From positions 1-37,363 of IMG/VR virus record IMGVR_UViG_3300032242_002852: a DNA stretch of 37,363 nt. One strand, 5' to 3'. The stretch is from a virus. The translations under genes and the position numbers were made by a program. Of the stretch, positions 1,009-36,710 are shown piece by piece (within the stretch, counting starts at the first letter, position 1; each line of letters starts with the position of its first letter). A model generated the notes under the pieces. The model saw only the letters and a program-made list of their open reading frames with translations, was not told the origin of the DNA and did no database searches.

Positions 1009-3075
1009 ATGCTATCATTTAAAACATACTTAATAGAATCGCTTGACATAGAAAAGCTAAAGCATTTAGAACACCTTGAAGATCATATGATTCATGGCGG
1101 TCATGAAGGCGTTGCGCATGCCTCTGAAACGCTAGCTGACGTTCTTGCTATATTGGAAGGCAAACCAAGAAAAAGCTTTGGTCAACAAACTAGAATCACA
1201 ACCAAGTATGATGGCGCCCCTTCGATTGTATTCGGTATTAATCCAGAGAACGGTAAGTTCTTTGTTGCTTCCAAATCAGCATTCAATAAGAATCCAAAGC
1301 TAAATTACAATGAAAGAGACATTGAAGAGAACCACGGACATGCGCCTGGTCTCGTAGCTAAATTGAAACAAGCTTTGAAAGAGCTACCGAAAATAATGCC
1401 TAATGGCGGTGGTGTTTTCCAGGGAGACCTGATGTACACCAAAGAGGATCTCGTCAAAAACAAAGACGGTTCTTTCAGCTTCACACCTAATACAATTACA
1501 TATACAACAGATACCCCTGAACAAATACGCAGCGCTGAAGTGGCAAACCTTGGCGTTGTCGTGCACTCGAGATATGTTGGTAAAACTTTGGCTGACGCTA
1601 AGGTAAGCTTTGATGTTGATCAGAGTCAGTTCAAGCGTAATCCAGATGTTCATATGATCAACCCAGAAATATCTGGCGCTAATATCAGACCCATTGAAAA
1701 GAAAAAGTACGAAACAGAACTTCAGCAAGCATTAGACATTTACTCTAATATGGATAATGATATATTCAACGTTGTCGACGGTCACGACGAAACGATGAAA
1801 ACGTATATCAATGCTTGCGTTAGAGATGGTTCAACACCTGACGGTAAAGGCTACCTTGCGTTTATGAAAACAAGGTGGCAGAAAGAAATAGATAAGGCGA
1901 AGTCAGCAGAAGGTAAAGCTAAGAAAAAAGCTTCAGGCGACGCAGCAACTTCACATATCAAAAACCATATGGAACAGTTTAATAATCTGTTCAGAATGCA
2001 CAAGAGTTTACAGCAAGCCAAAGATACATTGACTGTTGCTTTGTCTAACACTGTGAACACAGGTTTCAAAACAACTGTTGGCGGTAAGGTTGTCAAGCCT
2101 GAAGGGTTCGTTGCTATCCGTGGCGGTCGCCCAACGAAACTTGTTGACCGTGCTGAGTTTAGCCGTTTGAATTTTGCTGGCGGTGCATTCCAGAAAGCAG
2201 CTAAGGAAGAACAAGCAGCTGCTGAAGATTTGAATACAGTTGTTACTTCGTTCGGCAGAATGAACCCACCAACATACGCTGGTCACGGTGCTGTTGTTGG
2301 TAAGGTTGACGAACTAGCCAAAGAAATGAAAGTCCCTTCTGTTATTGCGCTTTCGCGTTCGCAAGACCCAGAAAAGAACCCACTGACGCCAGAACAAAAA
2401 CTAAAGCATGCAAAGCGTATGTTCCCTGGTGCTAATATTATGTTGGCTGATGAAGATGCCAAAACTATCATCGCCCATATCAAAAAGCTAAATCAAAAAG
2501 GTCACAATCACCTCGTGCTTGTTGTCGGTTCTGATCGCGTTACAGAGATGCAAAAGCTGCTTGAAAAGTATAATGGTACAGAGTTCAACTTCAAAAAGAT
2601 AGATGTAGTGTCTGCTGGCCAGCGCGATATGGATTCTGACGTTGAAGAGCCAGATGAAAAGCCAGCCAAAGACGAAACACCAGAGCAAAGAAAAGCTCGT
2701 GAAGAAAGAAAACGTCGCGGTATGTCAGCGTCAAAAATGCGTGCTCATGCTATTGGCGGTCGTTATAGTGAATTCAAAGCAGGTATGCACCCTGAAGCGC
2801 CCGAAGAACATACTAAAGAAATGTATCATGAAGTTCGTCAGGGTATGGATATTAAAATCGGTCCAGATACACCAATTAGAGCTTTGTTGAATCATGCCAA
2901 GCGTAAAGACCCTATCGGTCTGAAAGCTCGTAAAGAAATTGAACGCCGTGAACATATGAAAGAAATTGAAAAGCAACAAACTGTTAGGAAAAAAGCGGCA
3001 TCAAAAACAATCAAAACAGTTAAGAAAGTAGCGACTGGAAATGGACGAGCAGAAGTTATTAAGAAACCTAGCTAA
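1009..3075 (+). CDS. ligase-like KxDG domain fused to HIGH-type nucleotidyltransferase
   Basis: A 688-residue two-part protein of a family seen in T4-like phages of aquatic bacteria (related to DUF6267, from memory). The N-terminal half has K66-Y-D-G in TTKYDGAPSI, the motif I signature of the covalent nucleotidyltransferases (DNA/RNA ligases, capping enzymes), and GVFQGDLMY near 135-145, like ligase motif III. The C-terminal part has GRMNPPTYAGHG (416-427), a variant of the (H/T)xGH loop of NMN/cytidylyl-transferases, and MSASKMRAHA (572-581), resembling their ISSTxxR motif. A charged linker lies at about 545-570. The first ten residues, MLSFKTYLIE, look like a T4 capsid-targeting leader. 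The substrate is unknown: RNA or DNA end repair, or NAD metabolism, are options. Confidence 0.6.
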   Translation: MLSFKTYLIESLDIEKLKHLEHLEDHMIHGGHEGVAHASETLADVLAILEGKPRKSFGQQTRITTKYDGAPSIVFGINPENGKFFVASKSAFNKNPKLNYNERDIEENHGHAPGLVAKLKQALKELPKIMPNGGGVFQGDLMYTKEDLVKNKDGSFSFTPNTITYTTDTPEQIRSAEVANLGVVVHSRYVGKTLADAKVSFDVDQSQFKRNPDVHMINPEISGANIRPIEKKKYETELQQALDIYSNMDNDIFNVVDGHDETMKTYINACVRDGSTPDGKGYLAFMKTRWQKEIDKAKSAEGKAKKKASGDAATSHIKNHMEQFNNLFRMHKSLQQAKDTLTVALSNTVNTGFKTTVGGKVVKPEGFVAIRGGRPTKLVDRAEFSRLNFAGGAFQKAAKEEQAAAEDLNTVVTSFGRMNPPTYAGHGAVVGKVDELAKEMKVPSVIALSRSQDPEKNPLTPEQKLKHAKRMFPGANIMLADEDAKTIIAHIKKLNQKGHNHLVLVVGSDRVTEMQKLLEKYNGTEFNFKKIDVVSAGQRDMDSDVEEPDEKPAKDETPEQRKAREERKRRGMSASKMRAHAIGGRYSEFKAGMHPEAPEEHTKEMYHEVRQGMDIKIGPDTPIRALLNHAKRKDPIGLKARKEIERREHMKEIEKQQTVRKKAASKTIKTVKKVATGNGRAEVIKKPS

Positions 3076-3751
3076 GGCACTAGGCAACGAAAACTTATTG
3101 GAAGAGTTAGAGCAAAAAAAAGCTAAAGAAGCTGCTTTGCTTGAAAGCATGAATAGTGCTTTGACTAAACTAACCATGGGAGAAAAATTAGCTCCAGCAC
3201 CAATTGTTGAAGAAACAAAAGTTGCTGCACCAGAGCTTATCGTTGAAATTGGTCGTCAGCCGGAACCAGAGTTACCTAAAAAAGATATTGTTACACAATC
3301 AGTTATTGCTCTTTCTAAAACGAATCAACAAGACGGTTCAATACAAGCGGTTGCTGACGAGATACCAGATGTGTATCGCCGCGAATTAGATATTATCAAA
3401 AAGTCGATCGCCGACTTCCATCGTTTTGCTCAAAGGCATTCTCAGCTCGGCGGTGGCGGTGCTGGTGATATTGTTCACCTCGATCATCCAACAAAAACTG
3501 TTTACTCAAATTACGCCTTTACAAACAAAGATTATTATATCGGCGCTGGTGCTACACCAATTACTATTACACTTCCTGCTGTTGCTAAGAACGGCAGAGT
3601 TATAGTGGTAAAAGACGAAGTTGGTAACTGTTCTCAAAATCCGATCACAGTTCATGGAACGGTCGACAATGATCCAGGCGGTTTAATTTTAGCAGAAAAT
3701 AATGGCGGCATTCAGCTGATATACAACAACGGAAGTTGGAGAATCATATGA
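3041..3751 (+). CDS. virion structural protein with tail-fibre-type C-terminal domain
   Basis: A 236-residue protein whose ATG lies 35 bases inside the previous gene. Residues 1-45 are a charged helix, probably coiled coil, followed by a Pro/Glu-rich linker. The C-terminal ~95 residues (ITLPAVAKNGRVIVVKDEVG, then a Gly/Asn-rich stretch ending in QLIYNNGSWRII) match the small beta domain that often closes phage tail fibres and baseplate appendages. The stop overlaps the next start by four bases (ATGA), so the two fibre-like proteins are translationally coupled and probably assemble together. Confidence 0.6.
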   Translation: MDEQKLLRNLAKALGNENLLEELEQKKAKEAALLESMNSALTKLTMGEKLAPAPIVEETKVAAPELIVEIGRQPEPELPKKDIVTQSVIALSKTNQQDGSIQAVADEIPDVYRRELDIIKKSIADFHRFAQRHSQLGGGGAGDIVHLDHPTKTVYSNYAFTNKDYYIGAGATPITITLPAVAKNGRVIVVKDEVGNCSQNPITVHGTVDNDPGGLILAENNGGIQLIYNNGSWRII

Positions 3752-5511
3752 CATATCTTTTTAGTAATACAATTACTGGTAACGTAAACATTTATAATAG
3801 TAACGGCACCGCAATTGCTGGCGCGAATAGGTTACCAGTTGATATTGGAAACACGACTATCAACATATCTGGTAACGTCAATATTTCTGACGTCGTTCAA
3901 GTAAACAGCACACCAGAAAATCCAGTGCATAATCACGTTACTGAAGTCGGCACTAGCGGTATTTTGGCTGTACCGTATTTACCAATTGGCGGCAATGTTT
4001 CTGTTAATAACGTCGTTATAGTTTCTAATGCTTATCCTGTTACGCAGAACGTATCGTTTTCTAATCAAACTATAAACATTTCAGGCATTTCAGGTAATTT
4101 AGCCGGTATTACATCAACAATAACAGTAGCTAATTCCTATCAAACAACACAGAACGTCTCGTTCAGTAATCAATCTGTCAATATTACTAATATACCAGCA
4201 ACACAAAACGTACAAGTACTTTCTAACACGACCAATTACGTTTATACACAGTCGGCGCCAACTTGGTCTGTCGACGCTCTTAGTAAATTGCGCGTATCAA
4301 TTATTCAAAACCAAGATTTTTTCACGCCAGTAGTTGACGACGATACAACTTTCAGATGGAATCAAACTGTAACTGGTACTCAAGCAACTTCTGCTTTCCT
4401 TGCTAACACCGCTGAAATAACTATGACTTCTGGTAATTCGGCTTCTGGTTCTGTAATAAGACAAACTTATGTCAAATATAAAATTATTCCAGGAACCTCG
4501 CATTCCGTTTACACGACAGTTAATTTCAACGCTAATAATACTGAAACTGGCGTTACCCGTAGAACTGGATTATTTGACGGTAACAACGGGTTGTATTGGG
4601 AACAAACAGCTAATACGCTAGCGGTTGTTGTCAGGAGAAAAGTTGCTAATGGTTCTGTAATTGAAGATAGAACTTATGCGAATAGTTTCAACACGGATAA
4701 ATTGGATGGTACAGGTCCTTCAGGTTTCGACATATTTTCTAAAGGATTAAATTTTTATTATACTTTCTGGTTCGATATCGTTGGCGGTAGGACTGGTAGG
4801 GCAAGGTTTGGAATAGGAACTGCATCTGGTCCACAAATATGTCACGTGGCGAATTATGGCGGTAACAACGCTCTAAACACTAATTTTATCACAGCTGCTA
4901 GCTTACCGCTGAGAAGAGAAATATTCAATAGCACTACACAAGCTACTATCCCATATTTCAATATGTCGGGTATTACATATCAGGCAGAAGCCCCAACAAG
5001 ATACAACGCTTCGCCAACTTCTGCGTACAACGTCAATGGTTATGTTCCAGGATCATCGCTAACCCCATTGATAACAATAGGGTTGAGGTCAGGAGCTCCA
5101 TACACTTCTTCTGATATTTCGCCAGGCGAATTTACTCTAGTGGAACAAAACAATCAAGGTAAAAATAGCACCGCCGGAACATTCTTATATACTGTAGTTT
5201 ATAACGCTAACGTCAATGGAACATACGCGTATTCTGGTAACGGCTCTGTTTCGAATACAAATGTTGGTAGGTCAGCAAAACAATGGACTTGGGCAAATAC
5301 CGCTACCGTGACCGGAGGGTTGACTGTTCTTTCTGGAATAACTCAATCTGGTATTGGCCAACAAGTGTTCGATGGTATTCCAGAAACGTTTAACCTTGGT
5401 TCTGATATAAATGGAAACCCAGCAACCATGACAATATGTATTCAGCAACTTACGGCTGGCGGCGGTGCTTCTAACGTTGTTTGCACCTGGAACATGATTG
5501 AACAGTTATAA
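3748..5511 (+). CDS. large beta-rich virion protein, probably tail fibre
   Basis: A 587-residue protein. ATG at 3748 is preferred over an upstream in-frame TTG because GGAG (3738-3741) fits it and the start overlaps the previous stop. The first ~160 residues are low-complexity beta repeats rich in Asn/Val/Ile/Ser (NVNISG, TQNVSFSNQTINIS, TQNVSFSNQSVNIT), as in fibrous shafts. A larger globular part starts at about residue 170 with WSVDALSKLRVS, a motif I know from virion proteins of other T4-like phages. No enzymatic motif is seen. It ends just before the late promoter at 5514. Adhesin, shaft or other appendage cannot be separated from sequence alone. Confidence 0.6.
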   Translation: MTYLFSNTITGNVNIYNSNGTAIAGANRLPVDIGNTTINISGNVNISDVVQVNSTPENPVHNHVTEVGTSGILAVPYLPIGGNVSVNNVVIVSNAYPVTQNVSFSNQTINISGISGNLAGITSTITVANSYQTTQNVSFSNQSVNITNIPATQNVQVLSNTTNYVYTQSAPTWSVDALSKLRVSIIQNQDFFTPVVDDDTTFRWNQTVTGTQATSAFLANTAEITMTSGNSASGSVIRQTYVKYKIIPGTSHSVYTTVNFNANNTETGVTRRTGLFDGNNGLYWEQTANTLAVVVRRKVANGSVIEDRTYANSFNTDKLDGTGPSGFDIFSKGLNFYYTFWFDIVGGRTGRARFGIGTASGPQICHVANYGGNNALNTNFITAASLPLRREIFNSTTQATIPYFNMSGITYQAEAPTRYNASPTSAYNVNGYVPGSSLTPLITIGLRSGAPYTSSDISPGEFTLVEQNNQGKNSTAGTFLYTVVYNANVNGTYAYSGNGSVSNTNVGRSAKQWTWANTATVTGGLTVLSGITQSGIGQQVFDGIPETFNLGSDINGNPATMTICIQQLTAGGGASNVVCTWNMIEQL

Positions 5512-5513
5512 TT

Positions 5514-5521
5514 TATAAATA
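5514..5521 (+). promoter_or_regulatory. T4-type late promoter (TATAAATA)
   Basis: An exact TATAAATA three bases after the fibre gene's stop. It gives a leader of about 57 bases before the next ATG at 5586; the leader has a small GGGAAACCC hairpin (5573-5581) but no clear Shine-Dalgarno sequence. Confidence 0.75.
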
Positions 5522-5585
5522 ACGAGTCAGCAGAAAGCTACGGCAATCCTGCAAGTTCTTTGGTCAGCCCACGGGAAACCCAAAA

Positions 5586-6263
5586 ATGCAAAATGAAGAT
5601 ACCAGTCTCCAATCTAGTCCTCAGCTAGCACTTCGCGAGCAAAACAGGGTTGCCGTAGCCCTGTCTGGCAAACAAATCGTTTCAATTTATAAAAAATCGC
5701 AACAATCAGGTATCCCTTTTGACATCCTCGAAGAGGTGTACAGGAGAGGGTATGCTATTGACTTATCAGAACAAACAGCTTACAATAGGCTTAATTCTTT
5801 CATAGCGGGGGGCGCAGCATTGGATATTGATAAAGACTTAACTGAAAAAGAAGTTTGGGATAAACCAAACCCAGCAAAACATCACAAAACGTTGTCTCCT
5901 GCAGCAAAATCAAAGGCAAAGGCTAGAGCAAAAGCTGCTGGTCGCCCTTACCCAAATATGATAGACAATATGTGGGCTGCTTCTCATAACGAAGAATACA
6001 CTGGCGCAGAGCCAACTTCTAAAAACATGGAAGACCCAGCAAGCCGTTTCGTTGGCACAGATGCTTTGACGAACACTTACAAGTCAATGACTCCAGGTTA
6101 TTCAAAAGCTCAAACAGTAAAAAGAGTCGTAAAAGAATTGAACGTTCGTGATGCTGCGGGTAAAGAACATCACTTGAACAAAGTTGCTATCCGTATGGCG
6201 AACGGTAAAATTGAAATGAAAGATCCAGGTAAGAGCGGTAGCTCGGGCGGAGGCGGAAAATGA
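5586..6263 (+). CDS. conserved T4-like phage protein with basic Lys/Ala region
   Basis: A 225-residue soluble protein. Residues ~95-125 (KTLSPAAKSKAKARAKAAGR followed by PYPNMIDNMWAA) form a short conserved block that I associate with small proteins of cyanophage-like T4 relatives; it is strongly basic and could bind nucleic acid. The C-terminus is Gly/Ser-rich. No catalytic signature is evident. No ribosome binding site is visible before the ATG, which is unusual for a gene behind its own late promoter. Its stop overlaps the next start, so it is coupled with the DUF6321-like gene. Confidence 0.55.
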   Translation: MQNEDTSLQSSPQLALREQNRVAVALSGKQIVSIYKKSQQSGIPFDILEEVYRRGYAIDLSEQTAYNRLNSFIAGGAALDIDKDLTEKEVWDKPNPAKHHKTLSPAAKSKAKARAKAAGRPYPNMIDNMWAASHNEEYTGAEPTSKNMEDPASRFVGTDALTNTYKSMTPGYSKAQTVKRVVKELNVRDAAGKEHHLNKVAIRMANGKIEMKDPGKSGSSGGGGK

Positions 6264-6556
6264 TTCGTTTCAAAGACTTCATAGCAGAAGATTGGTCAGA
6301 TAAAAAATATCAAAATCCAACTGGCGGATTGACGAAAGCTGGCGTTAATGCTTATCGCCGTGAACATCCAGGAAGTAAATTAAAAACAGCTGTAACAACT
6401 GAACCATCTAAGTTGAAGAAAGGTTCTAAGTCAGCTAACCGCCGTAAGTCGTTCTGCGCACGCATGGGCGGTATGAAAAAGCGTTTGACATCAGCTAAAA
6501 CAGCCCACGATCCGGATTCACGTATCAACAAGGCACTTAGAAAATGGCACTGTTAG
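6260..6556 (+). CDS. DUF6321-like small basic protein with capsid-targeting-like leader
   Basis: A 98-residue protein. The core, GLTKAGVNAYRREHPGSKLK then EPSKLKKGSKSANRRKSFCA, matches the DUF6321-type family common in T4-like phages of aquatic bacteria. It is very basic, with two cysteines (FCARMGG and the final WHC), so DNA binding or a small metal site is possible. The N-terminus MIRFKDFIAED is almost the T4 internal-protein leader as I remember it (MKTYQEFIAEA), sharing FIAE at the same position. This suggests packaging in the head and cleavage after Glu10. It overlaps both neighbours. Confidence 0.6.
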   Translation: MIRFKDFIAEDWSDKKYQNPTGGLTKAGVNAYRREHPGSKLKTAVTTEPSKLKKGSKSANRRKSFCARMGGMKKRLTSAKTAHDPDSRINKALRKWHC

Positions 6557-7173
6557 GATTCATACAGTATATTGAAGAAGCTAAAAAGGGTACACTACAC
6601 GTTGTCGACATAGACGACACGATGTTTCATACAACAGCTCGTGTTCGTGTAAGAAATTCAAAAGGTAAAATTATCCGTTACCTTTCAAACTCAGAATACA
6701 ATGATCACAAGTTGAAGCCAGGGCAGAAGTACGATTACAAAGAGTTTAGAAACGCTAAAAAGTTTCGTGACGAATCTAAGCCGATTCAGCCAATGATCAG
6801 CAAGGTGAATAAGATTCAAAGGAACGTTGGAAAACATCCTAACAGTCGAGTTATTATAAACACTGCGCGTGCTGACTTCGATGACAAGGATACGTTCCTC
6901 GATACGTTTAGAAAACAGGGCGTTGATATTGATAAGATTCACGTTCATAGAGCAGGTAATGATACAAGCAAAGATTTACCCGCTCATAAAAAAGTGAAAA
7001 TTATCAAACAGTATATCGACAAGCACAGCCACAAAAAAGTTATCATGTACGATGATAGTAAAACTAATCTACAAGCATTACTAAATATGAAAAGAGAATA
7101 CCCTGATGTGAAATTTATTGCGTTTCATGTCAAACCAGACGGAACTATGAAAAAGTATAATGGAGAGAAATGA
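6544..7173 (+). CDS. HAD-family phosphatase (PNKP/acid-phosphatase-like)
   Basis: A 209-residue protein with the four HAD motifs: DIDDT (22-26) carrying the nucleophile, INTARADF as motif II, a conserved lysine in the HKKVKIIK region, and MYDDSKTN as the acidic motif IV. The family includes the 3'-phosphatase domain of T4 polynucleotide kinase as well as metabolite phosphatases; no kinase domain is present. The N-terminus MALLGFIQYIEEAKKGT resembles a capsid-targeting leader and shares EAKKGT with the protein starting at 9275. With the ligase-like fusion at 1009, a nucleic-acid end-processing role is attractive but inferred. Confidence 0.65.
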   Translation: MALLGFIQYIEEAKKGTLHVVDIDDTMFHTTARVRVRNSKGKIIRYLSNSEYNDHKLKPGQKYDYKEFRNAKKFRDESKPIQPMISKVNKIQRNVGKHPNSRVIINTARADFDDKDTFLDTFRKQGVDIDKIHVHRAGNDTSKDLPAHKKVKIIKQYIDKHSHKKVIMYDDSKTNLQALLNMKREYPDVKFIAFHVKPDGTMKKYNGEK

Positions 7174-7496
7174 TGGAAGTTTTATTTTTAGGTGTTGCGT
7201 TCGCGCTTATAATGTACGCTCTTATAGGTAACAGAAGCAAACCTGCCGTTAGCGAAAGTGCCGTAAAAAAAGAGCCTGAAGAAGTTGTTAAGGTTGAAAA
7301 AGAAATCAAACCAGCTCCGGTTGCTTCTTTAGAACCAGTTGTGACGCCTGAACCTGTTCCAGGACCTGTGGTAGAAAAAACAGTGACTGTTGAATCTAAA
7401 GCGGAAGCTATTCAGACGGTCATTGAAAAGAAAAACAAAAAGATAGCTAAGGCAACTGTAAAGAAGCCAGCCGCTAAGAAAACAAAGGCGAAGTAA
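7170..7496 (+). CDS. small membrane-anchored Pro/Lys-rich protein
   Basis: A 108-residue protein. One hydrophobic segment at residues 3-19 (VLFLGVAFALIMYALIG) probably anchors it in the inner membrane. The rest is a low-complexity Pro/Glu/Val linker followed by a Lys/Ala tail (KKPAAKKTKAK) like histone H1. The start overlaps the phosphatase stop, and the stop overlaps the Dps start. I do not recognise a family. A periplasm-spanning linker or a DNA-tethering protein are both possible. Confidence 0.5.
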   Translation: MMEVLFLGVAFALIMYALIGNRSKPAVSESAVKKEPEEVVKVEKEIKPAPVASLEPVVTPEPVPGPVVEKTVTVESKAEAIQTVIEKKNKKIAKATVKKPAAKKTKAK

Positions 7497-7933
7497 TGGA
7501 AGAACTAATCGAGCAGTTGAAGGTTGTACAAGCGTCATCCTTCGCTTTATATTTGAAAGCTCATTATTTCCACTGGAATGTGGAGGGACCAATGTTTCCT
7601 TCGTATCACGGGTTTTTTGAAACCATTTATACCGACGTTTGGGAATCAGTTGATTCTACAGCGGAAGAAATCCGTTCGCTACAGTCATATGCTCCTGGTT
7701 CTTTTGTTCGTTTCAGCGATTTATCGGTTGTGAAAGACGAAATAAACATTCCACCAGCTTTATCTATGGTAACGAAATTACAAGAAGACAATCAGAAGGT
7801 AATCAACGAGCTAACCAAAGCTCAATCACTCGCAGTAAAAAATAAATGCGATGGTTTACAGAATTACCTACAGGACAGAATCGATAGGCATTTCAAGCAC
7901 GATTGGATGCTTAGGGCAACAATGAAGGCGTAA
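7496..7933 (+). CDS. dps: Dps/ferritin-like DNA-protection protein
   Basis: A 145-residue protein of the Dps family, which oxidises Fe(II) with H2O2 and stores iron in a 12-subunit shell. The ferroxidase residues can be placed against E. coli Dps: His26 (HYFHWNVEGP), His38 and Glu42 (YHGFFE; E. coli has Asp), Asp53 and Glu57 (DSTAEE). It lacks the Lys-rich N-terminal tail that binds DNA in E. coli Dps, but the gene before it encodes a protein ending in such a tail. In the late structural cluster it may act on the host nucleoid or accompany the virion. The family call is firm; the role is inferred. Confidence 0.85.
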   Translation: MEELIEQLKVVQASSFALYLKAHYFHWNVEGPMFPSYHGFFETIYTDVWESVDSTAEEIRSLQSYAPGSFVRFSDLSVVKDEINIPPALSMVTKLQEDNQKVINELTKAQSLAVKNKCDGLQNYLQDRIDRHFKHDWMLRATMKA

Positions 7934-7937
7934 AGTA

Positions 7938-9275
7938 ATGAGAATCAGTTTAGAACACCAGATCAGAATGCTAATGGAAGAGCCAAAGAATACAACCGAA
8001 CGTAAAAAGGTTGTAAATGTTGCGCGCCCAGATGACAAGAAGCCAAACGATTCGGGTTCTAAGTTGGCGAAGCAAGCTGAAATTCAAACCAAGATTATCG
8101 AAGACAACCTTGGTTACGAATCAAAAGCCAGTGCTAACAAGCCAAACGAAACTGATAAGAAAGACGCCAAAGAAATCAAAGGCGGTAAAACCGAAATTGA
8201 GTTGAATCCTAAGACAGACGATAAAGTTGGCGATGAGTCTGATGAAACTCAGAAATCAAAAAATGCCAAAAACAAAGCTAATAAAGAAATTGGCGCTAAG
8301 GGCGCTGGAGAAAAAATAGTAAAGGAAACTAACATGGACATCAAATTCGGTTTATCAGACAGTCTTATCGAAGCTGCTCGTAAAGTAATGGAAGCTAAAA
8401 TGAAGGGCGTTTGCCCTAAGTGTGGTAAAAATCCTTGTCAGTGCGCTGGTGACCCAAAAGAGGTTGACGAAGGAAAACTTGACGAAAAGCTTGTTGGTAA
8501 GCAGCATAAGATTGACGCAAATCATAATGGCAAGATCGACGGACAGGACTTCAAAATTCTTCGTGGTAAGAAAAAGGTCGAAGAAGAAGTAGAAACTGTT
8601 GATGAAGCTGTAAATCACAGAGAATTCGGTAGCAAGGGTAAAATGCACCCAACTATGGCAAAAGGTATGAAGGTCGGTCAACACGCTGATTTTTATGGCC
8701 ATGGCAACGGAGACAAACATTATGGTATGGTAACAAAAAATACTGGCACAGCTGTACACATTAAAGCTGCTGGCAAAACTCATAAGTTTTCTGTTTCACA
8801 TAACGTTAGCGAAGAAGTTGAAACCGTTGAAGAAGGTAACGCAGCTAATAAAGAAAAGAAAAACGCTGCAGTAGCTGCTGTTGGCGCTAAAAATAAAGAC
8901 AGTCAATACCTTAATAAAATGAATCCGGCTGTAGCTGATAAAATTCGTGGTCGTGAAAAGATGTCCGGCGTTGACCGTAAACAATATAAAGAAGAAGTTG
9001 AGCAGATCGACGAACTATCAAGAAAAACTCTTGGTTCATATGCTCAAAAAGCTGATAAGCAGCTTACGACTGTTAATGCTGTTGGTCCAAGTCATAAGGC
9101 TGGTATTCCAGGTCATTACAGAGGTAAAAATAAAGACCTTGGTAAAGACCCTACAGATAAAATGAGAGGTAGAAAAGCGGGTATCAATATGGCTGTTAAG
9201 AAGCTCAACAAAGAAGAAGTTGAGTTCTCAGAAGCAGAACTAGCCCGCATCGAAGAAATCGCAAAGGGTCTATAA
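7938..9275 (+). CDS. virion-associated repeat protein with zinc knuckle and EF-hand-like loop
   Basis: A 445-residue, highly charged protein. Residues ~1-130 are Lys/Glu/Asp-rich and probably disordered. Then come CPKCGKNPCQC, a compact zinc-binding knuckle, and DANHNGKIDGQD, a complete calcium-loop pattern (acidic or Asn at 1, 3, 5, 9, 12; Gly at 6). Four repeats of the type EEVExxxE follow, encoded near 8580, 8811, 8991 and 9211; one continues as IDELSRKTLGSYAQKA, a module I associate with other large myoviruses. The next gene carries a related module. I infer a head-core or internal protein in which the Glu-rich repeats could be prohead-protease sites. No enzyme motif is seen. Confidence 0.5.
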   Translation: MRISLEHQIRMLMEEPKNTTERKKVVNVARPDDKKPNDSGSKLAKQAEIQTKIIEDNLGYESKASANKPNETDKKDAKEIKGGKTEIELNPKTDDKVGDESDETQKSKNAKNKANKEIGAKGAGEKIVKETNMDIKFGLSDSLIEAARKVMEAKMKGVCPKCGKNPCQCAGDPKEVDEGKLDEKLVGKQHKIDANHNGKIDGQDFKILRGKKKVEEEVETVDEAVNHREFGSKGKMHPTMAKGMKVGQHADFYGHGNGDKHYGMVTKNTGTAVHIKAAGKTHKFSVSHNVSEEVETVEEGNAANKEKKNAAVAAVGAKNKDSQYLNKMNPAVADKIRGREKMSGVDRKQYKEEVEQIDELSRKTLGSYAQKADKQLTTVNAVGPSHKAGIPGHYRGKNKDLGKDPTDKMRGRKAGINMAVKKLNKEEVEFSEAELARIEEIAKGL

Positions 9276-10315
9276 TGAAAAAGTTTTCTGATTGGGTAAA
9301 CGAGGCAAAGAAGGGGACTAATGATTCCCTTCCGCCTACCGCTATGTCATCGCCGATCCGTGGTGCCAATCAGGACCAGTCTGGCGCTAACGTAAAAAAC
9401 GACCTCGCTGATTACACGATCAGCGACAGCGCCACTATCGACAACTGGGAACTAAACTCTCCAGCCGCACGTTCGAAAGCGGTAAAAGATTTGATGAAGC
9501 TGAACGCCCGTCACGGGGCTGATCATATGCCTCATTCAAAGATAAAAGAAGAAACAATAAACGAATTATCACCTGAAATAGTCGGCAAAGTAAACAAAGC
9601 ACGCACAGTTGGTGGCAAACCAAGCAAAACAGACGTAGCTAAAAAAACACTTTCAACAGCTGTCAACAAAGCTTGGATCAAGTCTAAGGTTGGTACAGTT
9701 AAAGAAGGTATCCTTGCTGGTGTTGGTAAAACTAGAATCAAACCAGTCAACATGGCTCAAAAGGCTAGTTCGACAAAAGAACCGAATGCGCCAGGTAATG
9801 TGCATGCTCTACAAAACGCCGCAAACAAACGTGTTGCACAACTAGACCAAGCAGCACAACAGGAAAAAGAAAAATCAGCGCAAGACCGCGAAACTGAAAC
9901 AGCAAAGCGTCAAAGAGAAGCAGCTGCCCGCGATACAACCCGTAATAAGCAACAGCCAAAACAAACAACAGAACAATTTGATCTAGACGAAGCACGCGGT
10001 CGTCCTAAAAAGTCAACTGGTGAAGAATCTCTAAACATCATTATGCAGTTGCGTAAAGTTATTTCGTTGAGGGGTCAAGAACCCGTAACGTTCGCTAACG
10101 GAACTAGGGTTAAGTTGAATCCTGGAACGGCACATAGACTATTAGCCATGTATGATAATTTGAAGACTACTGGCGAGAAGCATGCGTTCTCTATGCGTAT
10201 TCATAAAAGCCCAGAAAGCCTAAGAGATGTTATTGCAGGCAAAAAAGAAGTTGTTAAACCAAAAATTAGTTTGGCTGGTAAAATAACAGGAACTCAACAT
10301 GCCGATCATTCTTAA
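9275..10315 (+). CDS. probable internal or core virion protein with capsid-targeting-like leader
   Basis: A 346-residue basic protein starting MKKFSDWVNEAKKGT, a close fit to the T4 internal-protein leader. Residues ~90-112 (KEETINELSPEIVGKVNKA) are a diverged copy of the module in the previous protein. A Gln/Glu/Arg-rich helical region (~185-230, probably coiled coil) follows. The C-terminus (RGRPKKSTGEESLNIIMQLR, then a compact alpha/beta stretch) begins with an AT-hook-like RGRPKK. Packaging in the head with DNA binding is inferred. It overlaps both neighbours. Confidence 0.5.
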   Translation: MKKFSDWVNEAKKGTNDSLPPTAMSSPIRGANQDQSGANVKNDLADYTISDSATIDNWELNSPAARSKAVKDLMKLNARHGADHMPHSKIKEETINELSPEIVGKVNKARTVGGKPSKTDVAKKTLSTAVNKAWIKSKVGTVKEGILAGVGKTRIKPVNMAQKASSTKEPNAPGNVHALQNAANKRVAQLDQAAQQEKEKSAQDRETETAKRQREAAARDTTRNKQQPKQTTEQFDLDEARGRPKKSTGEESLNIIMQLRKVISLRGQEPVTFANGTRVKLNPGTAHRLLAMYDNLKTTGEKHAFSMRIHKSPESLRDVIAGKKEVVKPKISLAGKITGTQHADHS

Positions 10316-15728: not shown

Positions 15729-16166
15729 ATGAGAGCACTTTTTACCTTTATTTTTTCTTGTTTTACAACCATTGCTTTTGCTAATGATTTAGAGTTCAGC
15801 TTTAACTCTCCAGCATTCAACGGCAACGGTTACACTTCGCATATAACTACTATCTACCAGTTAGAACAGGGTAATAAGCAAAAAATTAAAGATGATAAGT
15901 CTCTTTCCGAAGCACAGGCAGCCGCTAAGGCAGCTTCCGACCCTATCAATCAGTTCGTTATGACATTGAACTCAATGGTTTATCAGAAACTATCTCAGCA
16001 AGTTACTGATTCTATTTTTGGCACTGGCGGTAACTCAGGTAACGTTTCGTTCGGTACAACGACTATTTCTTGGTCTAAAAATCCAGACGGAACAGTTACA
16101 GTTAATACAATGACTCCTAACGGTATGACTCAGCTGATTATTCCCACTACAACTTTTGTTCAATAG
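15729..16166 (+). CDS. csgF: CsgF-like curli assembly factor
   Basis: A 145-residue secreted protein. A signal peptide (MRALFTFIFSCFTTIAFA) is followed by a mature N-terminus NDLEFSFNSPAFNGNGY. This matches the start of mature CsgF (TFQFRNPNFGGNP in E. coli), the segment that inserts into the CsgG pore and forms a second constriction. The C-terminal half (WSKNPDGTVTVNTMTPNGMT) resembles the CsgF beta region. In bacteria CsgF sits at the cell surface and couples secretion to fibre nucleation. It is the first gene of the operon and directly precedes csgG, as in bacteria. Confidence 0.8.
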   Translation: MRALFTFIFSCFTTIAFANDLEFSFNSPAFNGNGYTSHITTIYQLEQGNKQKIKDDKSLSEAQAAAKAASDPINQFVMTLNSMVYQKLSQQVTDSIFGTGGNSGNVSFGTTTISWSKNPDGTVTVNTMTPNGMTQLIIPTTTFVQ

Positions 16167-16173
16167 GTGAAAT

Positions 16174-16965
16174 GTGAAAATCTTTATTGCTGCCCTTAGT
16201 TGCCTAATCCTTGCTGGATGTGCAACGAAATATGCTGATGTGGATTATCAGGTTGAACCGCCCAAGGTTGTTAGCCCTGACTTTTTTAAGCGTGATGAAA
16301 ACAAAGTAAAACCACCAAAGGGTGGTAAGGTAACAGTAAGCGTATACAGTTTCAAAGACCAGACAGGTCAGAGGAAGCCAAACGATAAGTTGGCAGTGTT
16401 CTCATCAGCCGTCACTCAAGCGCCGGACGCTTACCTCGTCAAGGCGTTACAGGATGTCGGCGATAATAAGTGGTTTCGAGTTATTGAACGAGTTGATATT
16501 GATAACTTGATCAAAGAACGTCAACTTATCAAGTCGATGAGAGACCTATATGATGGCGACAAGGCAAAACCTCTTGACCCTCTGTTGTTCTCTGGTTTGA
16601 TTATCGAAGGCGGCGTTGTTGGTTATGATTCGAGCATTCAAAGTGGCGGTATTGGCGTAAAGGTATTTGGTATCGGTCCTAGTGTTCAGTACAGAACAGA
16701 TATCGTTACAGTTAATTTAAGAGTTGTCGCTGTTAACTCTGGCGAAGTGTTGCTCAGCGTTACGACAACGAAAACGATTATGAGTTATGGCGACAACGTA
16801 GGTTCTTTGGTTTTTGTTGATGCTGGAACACTAAGTATTGAGGGCGAAGTCGGTCATTCTCTAAACGAGAGCGTAAACTTAGCTACGCAAAGAGCAATTG
16901 AAGCTGCTGTTGTTGAGATGGTGAGGGAAGGCGAAAGAAAGAAATACTGGAAGTATAAGGAGTAA
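16174..16965 (+). CDS. csgG: CsgG-like curli secretion channel lipoprotein
   Basis: A 263-residue outer-membrane lipoprotein. In E. coli nine CsgG subunits form the pore that exports curlin. The lipobox LAGC has the lipidated Cys16. Strongly conserved blocks include VSVYSFKDQTGQRKP, SGGIGVKVFGIG, TVNLRVVAVNSGEVLLSV, TKTIMSYG and LSIEGEVGHS. The constriction loop has diverged: the Tyr-x3-Asn-Phe of E. coli becomes NDKLAVF, keeping only the Phe, so pore selectivity may differ. The start is GTG with AGGTGA upstream. CsgG homologues occur in other marine phages, but here CsgF, a curlin, FecR and a cyclase accompany it. Confidence 0.93.
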   Translation: MKIFIAALSCLILAGCATKYADVDYQVEPPKVVSPDFFKRDENKVKPPKGGKVTVSVYSFKDQTGQRKPNDKLAVFSSAVTQAPDAYLVKALQDVGDNKWFRVIERVDIDNLIKERQLIKSMRDLYDGDKAKPLDPLLFSGLIIEGGVVGYDSSIQSGGIGVKVFGIGPSVQYRTDIVTVNLRVVAVNSGEVLLSVTTTKTIMSYGDNVGSLVFVDAGTLSIEGEVGHSLNESVNLATQRAIEAAVVEMVREGERKKYWKYKE

Positions 16966-16968
16966 CAA

Positions 16969-17631
16969 ATGAAGAAAATACTACTAGCTTTCTTTGTATT
17001 GCTAGCAACTATGGGCGTCAGTCACGCTCAAAATACCATATACATGAGGCAGTTAGGTTCTTCGTCAACTATCAACTTAGAACAAATTGGTTCAAACAAC
17101 TCCATTGGTACATCGACCACTTACTCATCAAGTAACGGCGAAACCAATACGGTTAACGTGCAACAAACTGGTAGCAATAATATACACAATTTTGCTATCA
17201 ATGGTTCTACAGTTAACTATAGTTCTATAATCAACGGCGACTCCAATCAGTTTACTTTGAGCTGCGGCGACTCTGCTGTTTCTTGTACTAATGCTAATAT
17301 AACAGAAACCGCAACTGGTAACTTGAATACCGTTAGTCAAACGGTGAAGGGTCAAAATATCAGTTCAACAGTTTCTATTATGGGATCGTCTAACGCTATA
17401 ACTACTAACATTAGGCAATCTAACTCAACGAGCAATATCTCCGTAACAGGAGATGCGAACAACGTGAATTCAACTATGAATGCTGTCGGCGGAACTGGCA
17501 GCACTTTGGGTATTAATATTCTTGGTAGCTCAAATACCGTATTAACAGCCCAAGGTGGAACGATTGATAGTACCGTCAAACTTCAGGTTACTGGTACTTC
17601 TAATAACGTTACTGTTCGTACCGGAAATTAG
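16969..17631 (+). CDS. curlin-like amyloid repeat protein (CsgA/CsgB type)
   Basis: A 220-residue secreted protein with signal peptide 1-20 (ending GVSHA). The mature part has about eight repeats of ~22 residues built around (Q/x)xGxxNxh, for example NLEQIGSNNS, NVQQTGSNN, TETATGNLN, VSIMGSSNA, ISVTGDANN, INILGSSNT and LQVTGTSNN. This is the strand-turn-strand pattern of curlin beta-solenoids. The Gln is fully kept only in the first two repeats, so it is diverged and could be a nucleator (CsgB-like) or a fibre subunit. Two cysteines (SCGDSAVSC) near residue 100 are unusual for curlin. AAGGAG precedes the ATG; the last 77 bases also encode the start of the next gene. Confidence 0.75.
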   Translation: MKKILLAFFVLLATMGVSHAQNTIYMRQLGSSSTINLEQIGSNNSIGTSTTYSSSNGETNTVNVQQTGSNNIHNFAINGSTVNYSSIINGDSNQFTLSCGDSAVSCTNANITETATGNLNTVSQTVKGQNISSTVSIMGSSNAITTNIRQSNSTSNISVTGDANNVNSTMNAVGGTGSTLGINILGSSNTVLTAQGGTIDSTVKLQVTGTSNNVTVRTGN

Positions 17632-18541
17632 TTTTGCTGAAATAGGTAAAATTAATACGCTCGAAGGACCAGTTGTTTCAATAAAAAGAAACAAAGAGTT
17701 ATTAGAAGGCGCTAAAAACTCTGATATCGAATCTATGGACACTGTAGAGACTAAAAACTCTACGGTGAATATTTCGTTTAAAGACGATACTAAAGTTGTC
17801 ATCAAAGAAAACTCAAGACTACTGATCGATGACTTTGTTTACAACGCTAATGCTTCTGGTGGCAAGCTTGGACTGAAAATTGGGTTTGGCACCGTTAGGT
17901 ACGCATCAGGTCAGATAGCTCACGCCAACCCTCAGTCGGTCGATATACAAACGCCAACCGCGACTATAGGCGTACGTGGCACTGACTTCAATATGGTTGT
18001 TGACGAAATCGGTAGAAGCCTCGTTGTTCTTGTACCAAGCTGTGATGGAAGCAGATGCGTTACGGGTAAGATAGAAGTTACATCGTTATCAGGTGCAGTT
18101 GTTCTTGATCAGCCATATACAGCAACATATGTTTCTCAGGCTTCTCAAGCACCAATACCGCCAGTAAAAGTAGCGAATGTAACTGACAGGCAAATAAATA
18201 ACCTGTTGATTATTGCTGTCCCTCATGAAGTTATGACTGAGTTGCATCGTGAAGGTGATGAACGACAAAGAAGAAACGAAGCGGATCAGATGGATAGGCA
18301 TCAGATACCTGGACCAGGCAAAGCACTACAGAATAAACAACCCCCATCTCCAGTTATCGTTATAGAAAATAAAAACAGTAACACTACGGCAAAAACGACT
18401 AACGATGCAAACAATAGTATAAACCTAAATTTTGGTACAAATGGTAACGCTTCTATAACACTGGTAAGGAACGCAGAAGTTAACACGGCGACAGTCGGAG
18501 ATGGCGGGTCAAATAAAATAACTATAAGGCAGACAAAATGA
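17555..18541 (+). CDS. secreted FecR-domain protein
   Basis: A 328-residue secreted protein. From GTG 17555 it has a convincing signal peptide (MERLIVPSNFRLLVLLITLL then FVPEISFA), encoded entirely inside the 3' end of the curlin gene in another frame; TTG 17564, nine bases after the AAGGTGG at 17552, is an alternative start. The FecR signature TPTATIGVRGTDF is at 133-145. The C-terminal ~40 residues (SINLNFGTNGNASITLV, NTATVGDGGSNKITIRQTK) look like curlin-type repeats. FecR-domain proteins often lie beside CHASE2 cyclases in bacteria, as here. A periplasmic or surface scaffold or sensor for the amyloid is inferred. Confidence 0.75.
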   Translation: MERLIVPSNFRLLVLLITLLFVPEISFAEIGKINTLEGPVVSIKRNKELLEGAKNSDIESMDTVETKNSTVNISFKDDTKVVIKENSRLLIDDFVYNANASGGKLGLKIGFGTVRYASGQIAHANPQSVDIQTPTATIGVRGTDFNMVVDEIGRSLVVLVPSCDGSRCVTGKIEVTSLSGAVVLDQPYTATYVSQASQAPIPPVKVANVTDRQINNLLIIAVPHEVMTELHREGDERQRRNEADQMDRHQIPGPGKALQNKQPPSPVIVIENKNSNTTAKTTNDANNSINLNFGTNGNASITLVRNAEVNTATVGDGGSNKITIRQTK

Positions 18542-20598
18542 TGGAAAAGGTAGGGATATATCTAACAAGCACCTGGGCTGCTGTTATCAGCGCCTTGCTT
18601 CTTATCACTTTGTACGTTAGTAACCCCAGCCCTATTCAAACGCTGCAGCTGAAAACGTTTGATTACTTCATCAACTCGTTACCTAAAAAAGAATCAGAAG
18701 AAGTTGTTATCGTCAACTTCGGAGAAAAGTCCGTCGAACAATTCGGTCAGTGGCCATTTGATCGTCGTGATATAGCTAAAACAATTAATAATTTGAAAGA
18801 AAACGGCGCAACCGTTATTGTTGCTCCAATACTATTTTCTGAAAAAGACAGAGCAGGTGGTGATGATGAACTGGCAAAAAATCTTGAAGGTGTGGTCCTC
18901 GCACAAGTCCCTACTACCCAAAATAGCAAACCTGATAGCGTCCGTCGTGGCTTTGCTGCTATTGGTCCCGTTGACCCTGTTGACTCTGTATACCGTTGGA
19001 ATGGTGGACTTAGACCTCTTGAACACTATGCCAATGCTGCCGAAGGCGTTGGAGTTATCGCAACCGTACCTGAAATTGATGGTGTGGTGCGTCGTATGCC
19101 TCTGGTTGTCTCTATATCAAATAATCTTTATCCAGCTATTCCTCTTGAGGGTATCAGAGTTGCGGCAGGGGATCCTTCTTATCAAATTAAAACGAATGAG
19201 TTCGGAATAGAAGCTGTAAGAATACCTCAATTCCCTACTATAAAAACAGATGAAAGAGGAAGAGTTTGGACTACTTGGAACAATAAATTCAAAACATACG
19301 AAGCTACCGATCTAAATGAATCACTAGAAGGTAAAATCGTTGTTCTTGGCTTGACTATTGAAGGCGTAGGCGGTATAATTGCTACGCCTGTTGGTGAAAA
19401 GTGGGCGCATGAAATTCAAGCCGCAACACTTCAAACTCTTATAGACGGAACCTCTATTACTAGGTCGCCAGACTCCAAATTGATAGAACCAGCGCTGCTA
19501 GCATCATTGCTAGCGCTACTATTGTTTCTGGTGCCTCGTACTGCGGTAAAGTGGACATTGCCATTGTTCGGATCATTAGTTGCCTCCATCGTTTGGGGTA
19601 GCTATTATATGTTTGAATATTATATGCAGCTTTGGGATCCAAGCTACCTAATACTTAGTTGCGTCGCAATATTTTTTCATCTAGTTTTCAATAATTTTGC
19701 GAGAGAATTTAGGCTAAAACAACAAATCAAAAAGCAGTTCGGAACTTACCTTTCTCCAGCAATGGTTGAGAAACTTCAAAAGAACCCAGAGCTATTATGT
19801 CTTGGAGGAGAAACTCGTGAGCTATCGATCATGTTCACAGACGTTCGCGGCTTTACTACTATTAGTGAGCATTATGGAGCTGACGTACAAGGTCTTACTC
19901 AAATAATGAACCGCTATATGACGGCGATGACTGCGAAAATTATAGATAATGAAGGCACATTAGACAAGTATATCGGCGACGCTCAGATGGCTTTTTGGAA
20001 TGCGCCGCTTGACGATAAAGATCATGCGTTACACGCAGTAAAAACGGCATTGGAGATGTTAGGTGATTTGGAACGATTCAACAAAGAAGTTGCTTTGGAA
20101 GGCGTCCCTCCTTTTGGCATGGGGCTTGGCATCAATACTGGTTCTGTTGTCGTCGGAAATATGGGATCAGCCCAGCGTTTTGATTACACTTGTTTGGGTG
20201 ACTCTGTTAACCTTGCGTCTCGTCTTGAAGGACAATCAAAACCATACCACGTGAAAATGGTTATTGGTCCGAAAACATATGAATACGTCAAGGATAATTA
20301 CCTTTGCCTTGAGCTAGATTGCCTCGCTGTGAAAGGCAAAACAGAGGGCGTGAACATATACACTATCGTTCCAACATCTTATGTCAATCAAAAATACGCT
20401 AAAACACACGCTGATTTTATCAAATATTATCGCGAACAAAAGTGGGATAGATTAGAAAATTATCTGAAAGTGTTGTCTACCGCTTTTGACGGAGAGATGA
20501 CTGAATATTACGATATGATGAAAGAACGTATAAATCAATATAAAATAAATCCGCCAGGAAAGGATTGGGATGGAGTCTTCAGAACCAACAGTAAGTAA
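18538..20598 (+). CDS. CHASE2-domain class III adenylate cyclase
   Basis: A 686-residue membrane cyclase. One transmembrane helix (~10-28), a periplasmic CHASE2 sensor (~30-310), three transmembrane helices (~317-390), then a cytoplasmic class III cyclase domain (~425-600). All key residues are present: metal-binding Asp435 (FTDVRGF) and Asp481 (GDAQMAFW), substrate-choice Lys in LDKYIGD and Thr in FDYTCLGD (the Lys/Thr pair of class IIIb adenylate cyclases), and transition-state Asn/Arg in SVNLASRLE. It should make cAMP. It overlaps the FecR gene by four bases. In bacteria CHASE2 senses an unknown extracytoplasmic signal; FecR or the fibre is a candidate here. Confidence 0.92.
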   Translation: MMEKVGIYLTSTWAAVISALLLITLYVSNPSPIQTLQLKTFDYFINSLPKKESEEVVIVNFGEKSVEQFGQWPFDRRDIAKTINNLKENGATVIVAPILFSEKDRAGGDDELAKNLEGVVLAQVPTTQNSKPDSVRRGFAAIGPVDPVDSVYRWNGGLRPLEHYANAAEGVGVIATVPEIDGVVRRMPLVVSISNNLYPAIPLEGIRVAAGDPSYQIKTNEFGIEAVRIPQFPTIKTDERGRVWTTWNNKFKTYEATDLNESLEGKIVVLGLTIEGVGGIIATPVGEKWAHEIQAATLQTLIDGTSITRSPDSKLIEPALLASLLALLLFLVPRTAVKWTLPLFGSLVASIVWGSYYMFEYYMQLWDPSYLILSCVAIFFHLVFNNFAREFRLKQQIKKQFGTYLSPAMVEKLQKNPELLCLGGETRELSIMFTDVRGFTTISEHYGADVQGLTQIMNRYMTAMTAKIIDNEGTLDKYIGDAQMAFWNAPLDDKDHALHAVKTALEMLGDLERFNKEVALEGVPPFGMGLGINTGSVVVGNMGSAQRFDYTCLGDSVNLASRLEGQSKPYHVKMVIGPKTYEYVKDNYLCLELDCLAVKGKTEGVNIYTIVPTSYVNQKYAKTHADFIKYYREQKWDRLENYLKVLSTAFDGEMTEYYDMMKERINQYKINPPGKDWDGVFRTNSK
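19351..19379 (+). promoter_or_regulatory. possible internal sigma70 promoter in the cyclase gene
   Basis: TTGACT (19351-19356), a 17-base spacer and TATAAT (19374-19379): 11 of 12 consensus bases. It could transcribe the LpxH-like and glycosyltransferase genes early, apart from the late operon. It lies in coding sequence, so chance cannot be excluded. Confidence 0.35.
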
Positions 20599-35122: not shown

Positions 35123-35725
35123 ATGCAAAATTTTGACGAATGGATTGAATTAGAAAACGAAAAGCATAAGACTAATAGAGTCGGAAAAATTATACCCGCT
35201 GTGACGTTCAAGACACGTGTTCGTGACGAAAACGTTGGTGGGGCTAATCCTTATCGTTGGCAGGACGTAAATAGCTACGATTTGTTTGGAGGTAAGAGAG
35301 TTATTATTTTCTCGCTTCCTGGCGCTTTCACGCCAACTTGTGACACGTACCAGCTTCCTAGCTTCGACTTCATGTTCGAACAGTTTAAGGAACTTCACGG
35401 TATCGAAGACATCTATTGTATCTCTGTAAATGATGCTTTCGTTATGAATGCTTGGGCTAATTCGCAGGGCACTAGATCTGTGAAGATGATCCCTGACGGA
35501 AACGGTTCTTTCACTAGTAAGATGGGAATGCTCGTAAGCAAGTTCAACCTTGGTTTCGGCGATCGTAGCTGGCGTTACGCTGCTGTTGTGAATAACGGCG
35601 TTATCGAAGCTTGGTTCGAAGAGCCTGGTTTCAAGAACGACGCTGAAGAGGACCCTTACGGCGAAACTGACCCTAAGAACATCATGAATTATCTAAACTC
35701 TAAAGCAACAGAGGCTTCTCGTTGA
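35123..35725 (+). CDS. Prx5-like peroxiredoxin
   Basis: A 200-residue peroxiredoxin. The peroxidatic site is LPGAFTPTCDTYQLPSFD with Cys73, preceded by the conserved VIIFSLPG strand; the Arg partner is probably in the later GDRSWRYAAVV region. Prx5-type enzymes often take electrons from glutaredoxin (fused in some bacteria), and a glutaredoxin lies in the same transcription unit. The first residues, MQNFDEWIELENE, weakly recall the capsid-targeting leader but are not cut-site-like. AAGGAG precedes the ATG. Confidence 0.88.
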   Translation: MQNFDEWIELENEKHKTNRVGKIIPAVTFKTRVRDENVGGANPYRWQDVNSYDLFGGKRVIIFSLPGAFTPTCDTYQLPSFDFMFEQFKELHGIEDIYCISVNDAFVMNAWANSQGTRSVKMIPDGNGSFTSKMGMLVSKFNLGFGDRSWRYAAVVNNGVIEAWFEEPGFKNDAEEDPYGETDPKNIMNYLNSKATEASR

Positions 35726-36126
35726 TCATAGGTTTTACATGTGGCGCGTTTGACCTGTTGCACACAGGTCATCTCGCTATGTTAAAAGAAGCAAAGCAGC
35801 AGTGTGATTACCTTTTAGTAGGTCTTCACACCGATCCATCAAAAGATAGACAGGAGAAAAACAGTCCGGTTCAATCTGTTTTCGAAAGATATTATCAGCT
35901 AGCTTCTTGTAGGGATGTCGATAATATTATTCCTTACGATACCGAACTTGACCTCGAAAATATGATGGGTATTCTCGACATGAATATTAGATTTGTCGGT
36001 GCTGATCATATCAATGACTATATAACTGGTCAGGACATAATGAAAGAGCGCGGTATCAAAGTTGTGTTCACTGGCAGACATCATTGTTATAGCTCAAGTG
36101 AATTGAGGGAGAGAATTTTAAGATGA
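35722..36126 (+). CDS. HIGH-type cytidylyl/adenylyltransferase, probably sugar nucleotide forming
   Basis: A 134-residue nucleotidyltransferase with the His14-Thr-Gly-His17 loop (GAFDLLHTGHL), VGLHTDPSKD and C-terminal SSSELRERI. Size and motifs fit TagD-like cytidylyltransferases and the C-terminal half of HldE (heptose-1-phosphate adenylyltransferase). The next two genes are gmhA- and gmhB-like, so heptose-1-phosphate is the likely substrate. The start is TTG overlapping the peroxiredoxin stop (TTGA). Confidence 0.8.
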   Translation: MIIGFTCGAFDLLHTGHLAMLKEAKQQCDYLLVGLHTDPSKDRQEKNSPVQSVFERYYQLASCRDVDNIIPYDTELDLENMMGILDMNIRFVGADHINDYITGQDIMKERGIKVVFTGRHHCYSSSELRERILR

Positions 36127-36710
36127 GTTTTAGCGATCAGTTTTTTAATGAAGTTGTAGAAATTGCAGAACAACTCGATAGAAATGGAGTAGAACGTCTT
36201 GCTTCGACCCTCGCAAATACTAGAGATTTCAACGAAGGTCGTGTCTTCATCCTTGGAGTTGGTGGTAGTGCTGGCAATGCCTCACACATGGTTAACGACC
36301 TCCGCAAACTCTGCGGAATCGAAGCTTACGCACCAACTGATAACGCATCAGAAGTTACTGCTCGCACAAACGATGAAGGTTTTGACACCGTATTTGTCGA
36401 GTATCTCAAAGTCAGCCGACTAAGCTATAAGGACACTATCTTTATCCTTTCTGTTGGCGGTGGCGACGAAGAGCGTAATGTTTCCGTTGGGTTGATCAAA
36501 GCGATCAAGCTAGCTAAGTCAGTTGACGCTACTGTTGTCGGTATTGTTGGTAAGCCAAACGGTTATACAGCTAACAACTCAGATGTTTGTGTCGTTGTCC
36601 CACCGTTGTTCCCAGAACGTGTTACCCCTCACTCTGAAGCATTTCAGGCTGTAGTATGGCACTGTTTAGTTTCCCATCCAAAGCTTCAAATCAACTCGAC
36701 CAAATGGTAA
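36123..36710 (+). CDS. gmhA: GmhA-like sedoheptulose-7-phosphate isomerase (SIS domain)
   Basis: A 195-residue SIS-domain protein. GVGGSAGNASHMVNDL binds the sugar phosphate and SVGGGDEERN is the second phosphate loop; a conserved His is in FQAVVWHCL near the C-terminus, as in GmhA. It should convert sedoheptulose-7-phosphate to D-glycero-D-manno-heptose-7-phosphate, the first step of ADP- or GDP-heptose synthesis. The start overlaps the previous stop (ATGA). Confidence 0.85.
   Translation: MSFSDQFFNEVVEIAEQLDRNGVERLASTLANTRDFNEGRVFILGVGGSAGNASHMVNDLRKLCGIEAYAPTDNASEVTARTNDEGFDTVFVEYLKVSRLSYKDTIFILSVGGGDEERNVSVGLIKAIKLAKSVDATVVGIVGKPNGYTANNSDVCVVVPPLFPERVTPHSEAFQAVVWHCLVSHPKLQINSTKW

Follow-up and report, generated by a model that had tools for sequence, protein, structure and literature searches.

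The 37,363-bp virus fragment IMGVR_UViG_3300032242_002852 (the whole stretch analysed, referred to as the window) carries 56 called genes, four of which encode proteins that begin with a common leader resembling the N-terminus of the phage T4 internal proteins. With a probability of roughly 0.85, these leaders are T4-type capsid targeting sequences (CTSs), and the proteins behind them would be packaged, cut by the gp21 prohead protease and most likely delivered to the next host. Capsid targeting had been proposed in an initial annotation of the window; the proposal is upheld by the key residues of the leader and by the gp21 protease and matching cut sites in relatives, together with what comparison of sequences establishes: the leader is conserved, it comes and goes as a unit, and in related phages it is associated with presence in the virion. 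The mechanism is already known from T4.

The leaders and their conservation

In T4, mutational data assign residues 4 and 7 of the leader to targeting and residues 8 and 10 to processing (PMC9026906). A strict motif, M.{2,5}[FYW]..[FYW][ILVMF].E, was built on these residues, with positions from the same source and the aromatic class at 4 and 7 taken from the T4 leaders. Scanning the window with it returned the four leaders and nothing else (Table 1), each at the ATG that opens a plus-strand open reading frame, as annotated. The aromatic targeting residues are present in all four, shifted by two residues in the leader of the HAD protein, as are the aliphatic residue 8 and Glu10 required for processing (LIE/S, IAE/D, IEE/A and VNE/A, the slash marking the predicted cut). 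The T4 leader to which they had been likened, MKTYQEFIAEA, is indeed the start of ipII and ipIII.

Table 1. Leaders, the genes that carry them and intervening genes in the window.
Feature	Position	Strand	Basis
Leader 1, MLSFKTYLIE, predicted cut before S11	1009..1038	+	strict motif; relatives; start of model low-confidence and unfolded
DUF6267 domain and PPAT/NMNAT-type adenylyltransferase fusion	1009..3075	+	PF19782 (E=3e-89); motifs; fold
Leader 2, MIRFKDFIAE, predicted cut before D11	6260..6289	+	strict motif; kept in relatives (L048, L050, L051, L052, L073-L075)
Small basic DUF6321 protein	6260..6556	+	PF19846 (E=3e-20)
Leader 3, MALLGFIQYIEE, predicted cut before A13	6544..6579	+	strict motif with two-residue extension in front; 18 relatives aligned
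HAD phosphatase, T4 Pnkp 3'-phosphatase-like	6544..7173	+	invariant residues; model; phrog_415
Dps/ferritin-like protein, between leader genes, without leader (internal control)	7496..7933	+	PF00210 (E=2e-19)
Repeat protein without strict leader	7938..9275	+	N-termini of relatives
Leader 4, MKKFSDWVNE, predicted cut before A11	9275..9304	+	strict motif; kept in relatives (L054, L055, L056, L080, L090-L092)
Low-complexity protein with leader 4 (9275 protein)	9275..10315	+	open reading frame

Four leaders among 56 genes compare with 0.048 expected when each N-terminus is shuffled, at least four being reached in 0/20,000 shuffles, and with 0.032 expected from internal protein stretches; the DNA form of the pattern has two matches in the window against 0.05 expected. 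Phages outside the T4 group (T7, lambda, N4, T5 and SPO1) have the leader in 3/607 genes (Fisher p=0.0013 against the window). Across the T4 genome, the DNA pattern picks out ipII, ipIII and one small gene; a match to the pattern lies in T4 gene 61.1. Two related small open reading frames, at T4 114210 and RB49 102832, have the leader-like starts MLLEFKQFLYEA and MISFKRFLVEA.

The leader is found in related phages, kept across the DUF6267 relatives and present in isolates (C48C1, Melnitz and DLP_6). Of the environmental relatives of DUF6267, all 34 whose N-terminus is intact retain it, although several contigs are identical copies and independent cases are therefore fewer than 34. Among 23 relatives, F4, L8 and E10 are invariant and S11 nearly so, and positions 2, 3, 5, 6 and 9 drift. 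The HAD, DUF6321 and 9275 families keep the leader in some relatives and have lost it in others, with MALLTFKQYIEE or MIRFTQFLDEE read in HAD relatives, of which 18 were aligned. Overall, the leader is conserved across homologues whose identity falls as low as about 30%. In the neighbouring Dps, 5586 and 294 families, no relative examined has the strict leader (0/25 loci for Dps).

Where DUF6267 and the adenylyltransferase are separate genes (loci L068, L070 and L071, and isolate C48C1), each carries its own leader, and the DUF6267 proteins of S-SZBM1 and S-CREM2 have none, starting approximately where the mature protein would begin. The same leader thus stands on otherwise unrelated proteins and is gained or lost as a module. 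In C48C1 (OQ984149), the annotated cytidyltransferase begins at an internal ATG (63514); reading from the GTG at 63448 extends it by the leader MIKNFSQYLLEE. A further leader-bearing family of about 200 residues, without a known domain, lies near DUF6267 genes in L068 (8782-9372, MDKFKEFLYERFINL) and C48C1 (57293-57910, MDLMKFKTYLNEGFVNL).

The initial annotation had also noted the hexapeptide EAKKGT after the cut site in two of the proteins. As a second shared signal this did not hold up: it is largely kept in close HAD relatives, and the 9275 family has EAKKVP, EAKKKS and EKKATK in its place, so that the shared hexapeptide is probably a coincidence.

Virion proteomes, processing and competing readings

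The published virion proteome of S-CREM2 (Table 3 of its source) comprises 52 of about 219 proteins, and all four strict-leader genes of this phage are on it (p=0.003), namely the SAM lyase gp6, the kinase gp14, gp136 of unknown function and the adenylyltransferase gp154; its leaderless DUF6267 protein, gp87, is absent. Detection tracks the leader even between neighbouring genes: of two adjacent S-SZBM1 proteins, the adenylyltransferase gp140 has the leader and is among the listed virion proteins, and the DUF6267 protein gp141 lacks the leader and is not listed. S-SCSM1 gp91, with leader, is likewise a virion protein. Pooling the three phages, 6/10 strict-leader proteins are found in virions (p=0.0035).

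Near-leaders occur in the S-CREM2 virion proteins gp12 (LRFASFMAEA), gp13 (MKDLHSFLTEQ) and gp15 (MNFSEFNES), which fall outside the strict motif and were left out of the counts. The S-CREM2 region gp6-gp14 (L141:838-9847) looks like a second head-packaged set; it includes the SAM lyase (PF23780) and an APH-like kinase, both with strict leaders, and a Cas9-annotated nuclease whose near-leader lies 16 residues into the annotated start, all three being in the virion proteome.

The gp21 protease and the gp23 capsid protein are present in all isolates checked and in the nearest long relative of the window, the 167,756-bp locus L082, which has a similar gene order and is 61% identical in DUF6267 and 59% in the HAD protein. 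In relatives, gp23 and gp21 have candidate maturation sites, read from sequence (TLSE/A, LLTE/A, FLSE/A and YLSE/A), of the same form as the leaders. In two HAD relatives position 10 is Asp (MLKFRDYVTD); in T4 this substitution prevents cutting but still allows targeting (PMC9026906), and the natural variants are predicted to be packaged but uncut.

By analogy with T4, residues 4 and 7 of the leader would bind the scaffold core during head assembly, and the leader-bearing proteins would be incorporated into the prohead. Cleavage by gp21 would follow Glu10, or Glu12 for the HAD protein, and release the cargo, which would remain in the head beside the DNA and most likely pass into the next host cell together with it. 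For the window phage, packaging of the four proteins is very probable and cleavage of their leaders probable from the likeness to relatives, and injection is, less firmly, expected on the T4 precedent.

Several observations weigh against this account. The gp21 gene is not on the window, the head genes falling beyond its ends, and the evidence for packaging comes from the virions of relatives only. Four strict-leader proteins (three of S-SZBM1, one of S-SCSM1) were missed by mass spectrometry; at 43 to 165 residues they are small, only 30 proteins make up the S-SZBM1 list, and absence from virion lists is weaker evidence than presence. Many virion proteins have no leader, which is therefore not the sole route into the virion. 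The whole-genome leader excess of T4-like over other phages is merely suggestive (26/1875 against 3/607 genes, p=0.08), and the strict leader was not found in the whole genome of HTVC008M.

The main rival explanation is that the leaders do target the prohead, but that the proteins serve head assembly or merely fill the head and form no injected enzyme set. It draws on T4 IPIII, which influences how the core and head form and whose mutants are slow in head assembly (PMC9026906), and on the absence of an enzyme signature from two of the four cargos, the small basic and the low-complexity protein. It is nonetheless unlikely, since the HAD protein and the DUF6267 fusion retain complete catalytic signatures, which a pure assembly role would not preserve, and the T4 internal proteins and Alt are ejected (PMC9026906).

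Considerably less probable still is an N-terminal helix that marks the proteins for assembly into some other structure of phage or host, such as the tail or a membrane, with virion detection reflecting abundant or sticky proteins. Other partners could be bound by an amphipathic F..F start, and the S-SCSM1 authors considered such proteins left over after purification; however, Glu10 and the small residue after it match the sites that these phages have in gp23 and gp21, which is more than a mere helix would need, and virion detection goes with the leader even where genes are neighbours. As for short N-termini being alike by chance, the motif is short and has isolated matches in the control genomes (3/607 genes), but no shuffle reaches four leaders and homologues conserve the leader at low identity, which rules such resemblance out for practical purposes; conservation, modularity and the virion data in relatives make it untenable.

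The predicted cargo and its comparison with known systems

The bodies behind the leaders are unrelated, as first described, and the enzymes among them, a Pnkp-like HAD protein and a fusion of a ligase-motif domain with an adenylyltransferase, are backed by fold and motifs; the other two proteins have no assigned function. In the fusion, DUF6267 spans residues 18-390 and the adenylyltransferase about 408-615. The motif order I (KxDG), IV (EGxV) and V (K) is expected of ligase-type nucleotidyltransferases. The window protein has KYDG, QGD, EGFV and KLV, and KxDG, QGD, EGxV and KLV or KFV are invariant in 10 divergent homologues. DUF6267 has no match to Pfam ligase profiles up to E=10, so that its putative assignment as a ligase-like nucleotidyltransferase domain is based on these motifs.

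Structure searches with the fusion model are taken up by its C-terminal domain, whose predicted fold scores Z 13.8 to PPAT and 12.9 to NMNAT. The scores are tied, so the fold does not fix the substrate. The sequence contains the adenylyltransferase motifs YAGHG (GH) and MSASKMR (SxxKxR-type), PF01467 matches 11/23 family members, and the assignment as a PPAT/NMNAT-type adenylyltransferase is supported by the model.

The HAD protein has the complete DxDxT, T/S-x-R, K and DD signature, with D22, D24, T26, T107-A-R109, K150 and D170-D171 invariant among 18 relatives. Its model (mean predicted local distance difference test score 90) best matches the T4 Pnkp 3'-phosphatase (5uj0; Z 13.8 over 133 residues, root-mean-square deviation 2.7), followed by the Pnkp1/Rnl/Hen1 complex, and the protein matches phrog_415, polynucleotide kinase (E=2e-8). 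Model and catalytic residues thus support a Pnkp-type 3'-phosphatase-like fold, the substrate not being settled by it because other HAD phosphatases are close behind at Z 11-12. Foldseek gave no match with E<0.001 for the model of either the fusion or the HAD protein, and PDB sequence searches with the DUF6267 and HAD profiles returned only noise. Matches in a viral library were phage homologues and uncharacterised proteins.

DUF6321 forms the C-terminal end of several larger phage protein families; in L054, L055 and L082 it is fused to the 5586-type protein, and in the window it is a separate leader-bearing gene. The 9275 protein has no family match in profile searches.

The leaders resemble the CTSs of T4 IPI, IPII and IPIII, propeptides that gp21 removes, in length, in the aromatic residues 4 and 7, aliphatic residue 8 and Glu10, in the unrelated bodies behind them and in the presence of gp21 in relatives. 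They differ in that the window cargo comes from different families, enzymes among them, one of the leaders is two residues longer and some HAD relatives have Asp10; packaging is known in T4 and predicted in the window phage. T4 Alt, an ADP-ribosyltransferase that is packaged into the head and ejected into the host, parallels the enzyme delivery proposed for the window phage, but it has another activity and no sequence relation to the four cargos. The HAD protein shares fold and catalytic residues with the T4 Pnkp 3'-phosphatase and, in contrast, stands alone without a kinase domain. Set beside Rnl-type RNA repair, DUF6267 has the KxDG, EGxV and K motifs in ligase order, the likeness being confined to motifs, with no ligase profile match.

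The adenylyltransferase domain of the window is homologous to the virion cytidylyltransferase/NMNAT of S-SM1, S-CBWM1, S-SZBM1, S-SCSM1 and S-CREM2, and in the last three of these phages the virion enzyme has the same kind of leader; the window domain differs in being fused behind DUF6267, whose single leader it uses. The accessible portions of the source papers do not mention the leader and leave open whether these enzymes are carried cargo or carry-over. No report of CTSs in cyanophages was found in the openly available literature, nor, in the literature searched, one of the leader on these enzyme families, of its link to virion proteomes or of the position-10 variants. A T4-type leader would account for the cytidylyltransferase/NMNAT-like enzymes in several cyanophage virions, and suggests that the packaging route of T4 serves aquatic T4-like phages for supplying enzymes before genes are expressed. 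Scanning for the leader may therefore allow packaged and possibly injected proteins to be predicted from sequence, as in S-CREM2, where it singles out the SAM lyase, the kinase and the adenylyltransferase.

An early role of the cargo in nucleic-acid end repair or cofactor supply is conceivable, and an anti-defence role may be suggested by analogy with T4 IPI and the leader-bearing SAM lyase of S-CREM2. A more specific and rather doubtful proposal is that the head carries an injected end-repair and cofactor kit (the 3'-phosphatase and the ligase-like nucleotidyltransferase with its adenylyltransferase), which would mend tRNA or DNA that nucleases of the host defence have cleaved, or would restore NAD-type cofactors, before phage gene expression, the cargo of the Asp10 relatives staying joined to its leader.

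Gene neighbourhood

The best protein matches of the window are mostly to T4-like phages of cyanobacteria, Pelagibacter and Methylophilales (Kyanoviridae). Primase and ribonucleotide reductase genes lie downstream of the leader genes, and the same neighbourhood in S-SCSM1 contains NMNAT and six further annotated virion proteins. Relatives of the repeat protein that precedes the 9275 gene begin M..[FY]RSLE.KIR..x(I/L/V).EA, possibly a different, longer leader. At 15729-20598, the curli-type secretion genes csgF and csgG are followed by a small repeat-type, secreted-looking protein, a FecR-domain protein and a CHASE2 adenylate/guanylate cyclase, a block of host-surface and signalling genes that is unusual for a phage. 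Consecutive genes for a cytidylyltransferase, a SIS-domain isomerase and a HAD phosphatase at 35722-37258 look like a heptose-synthesis set.

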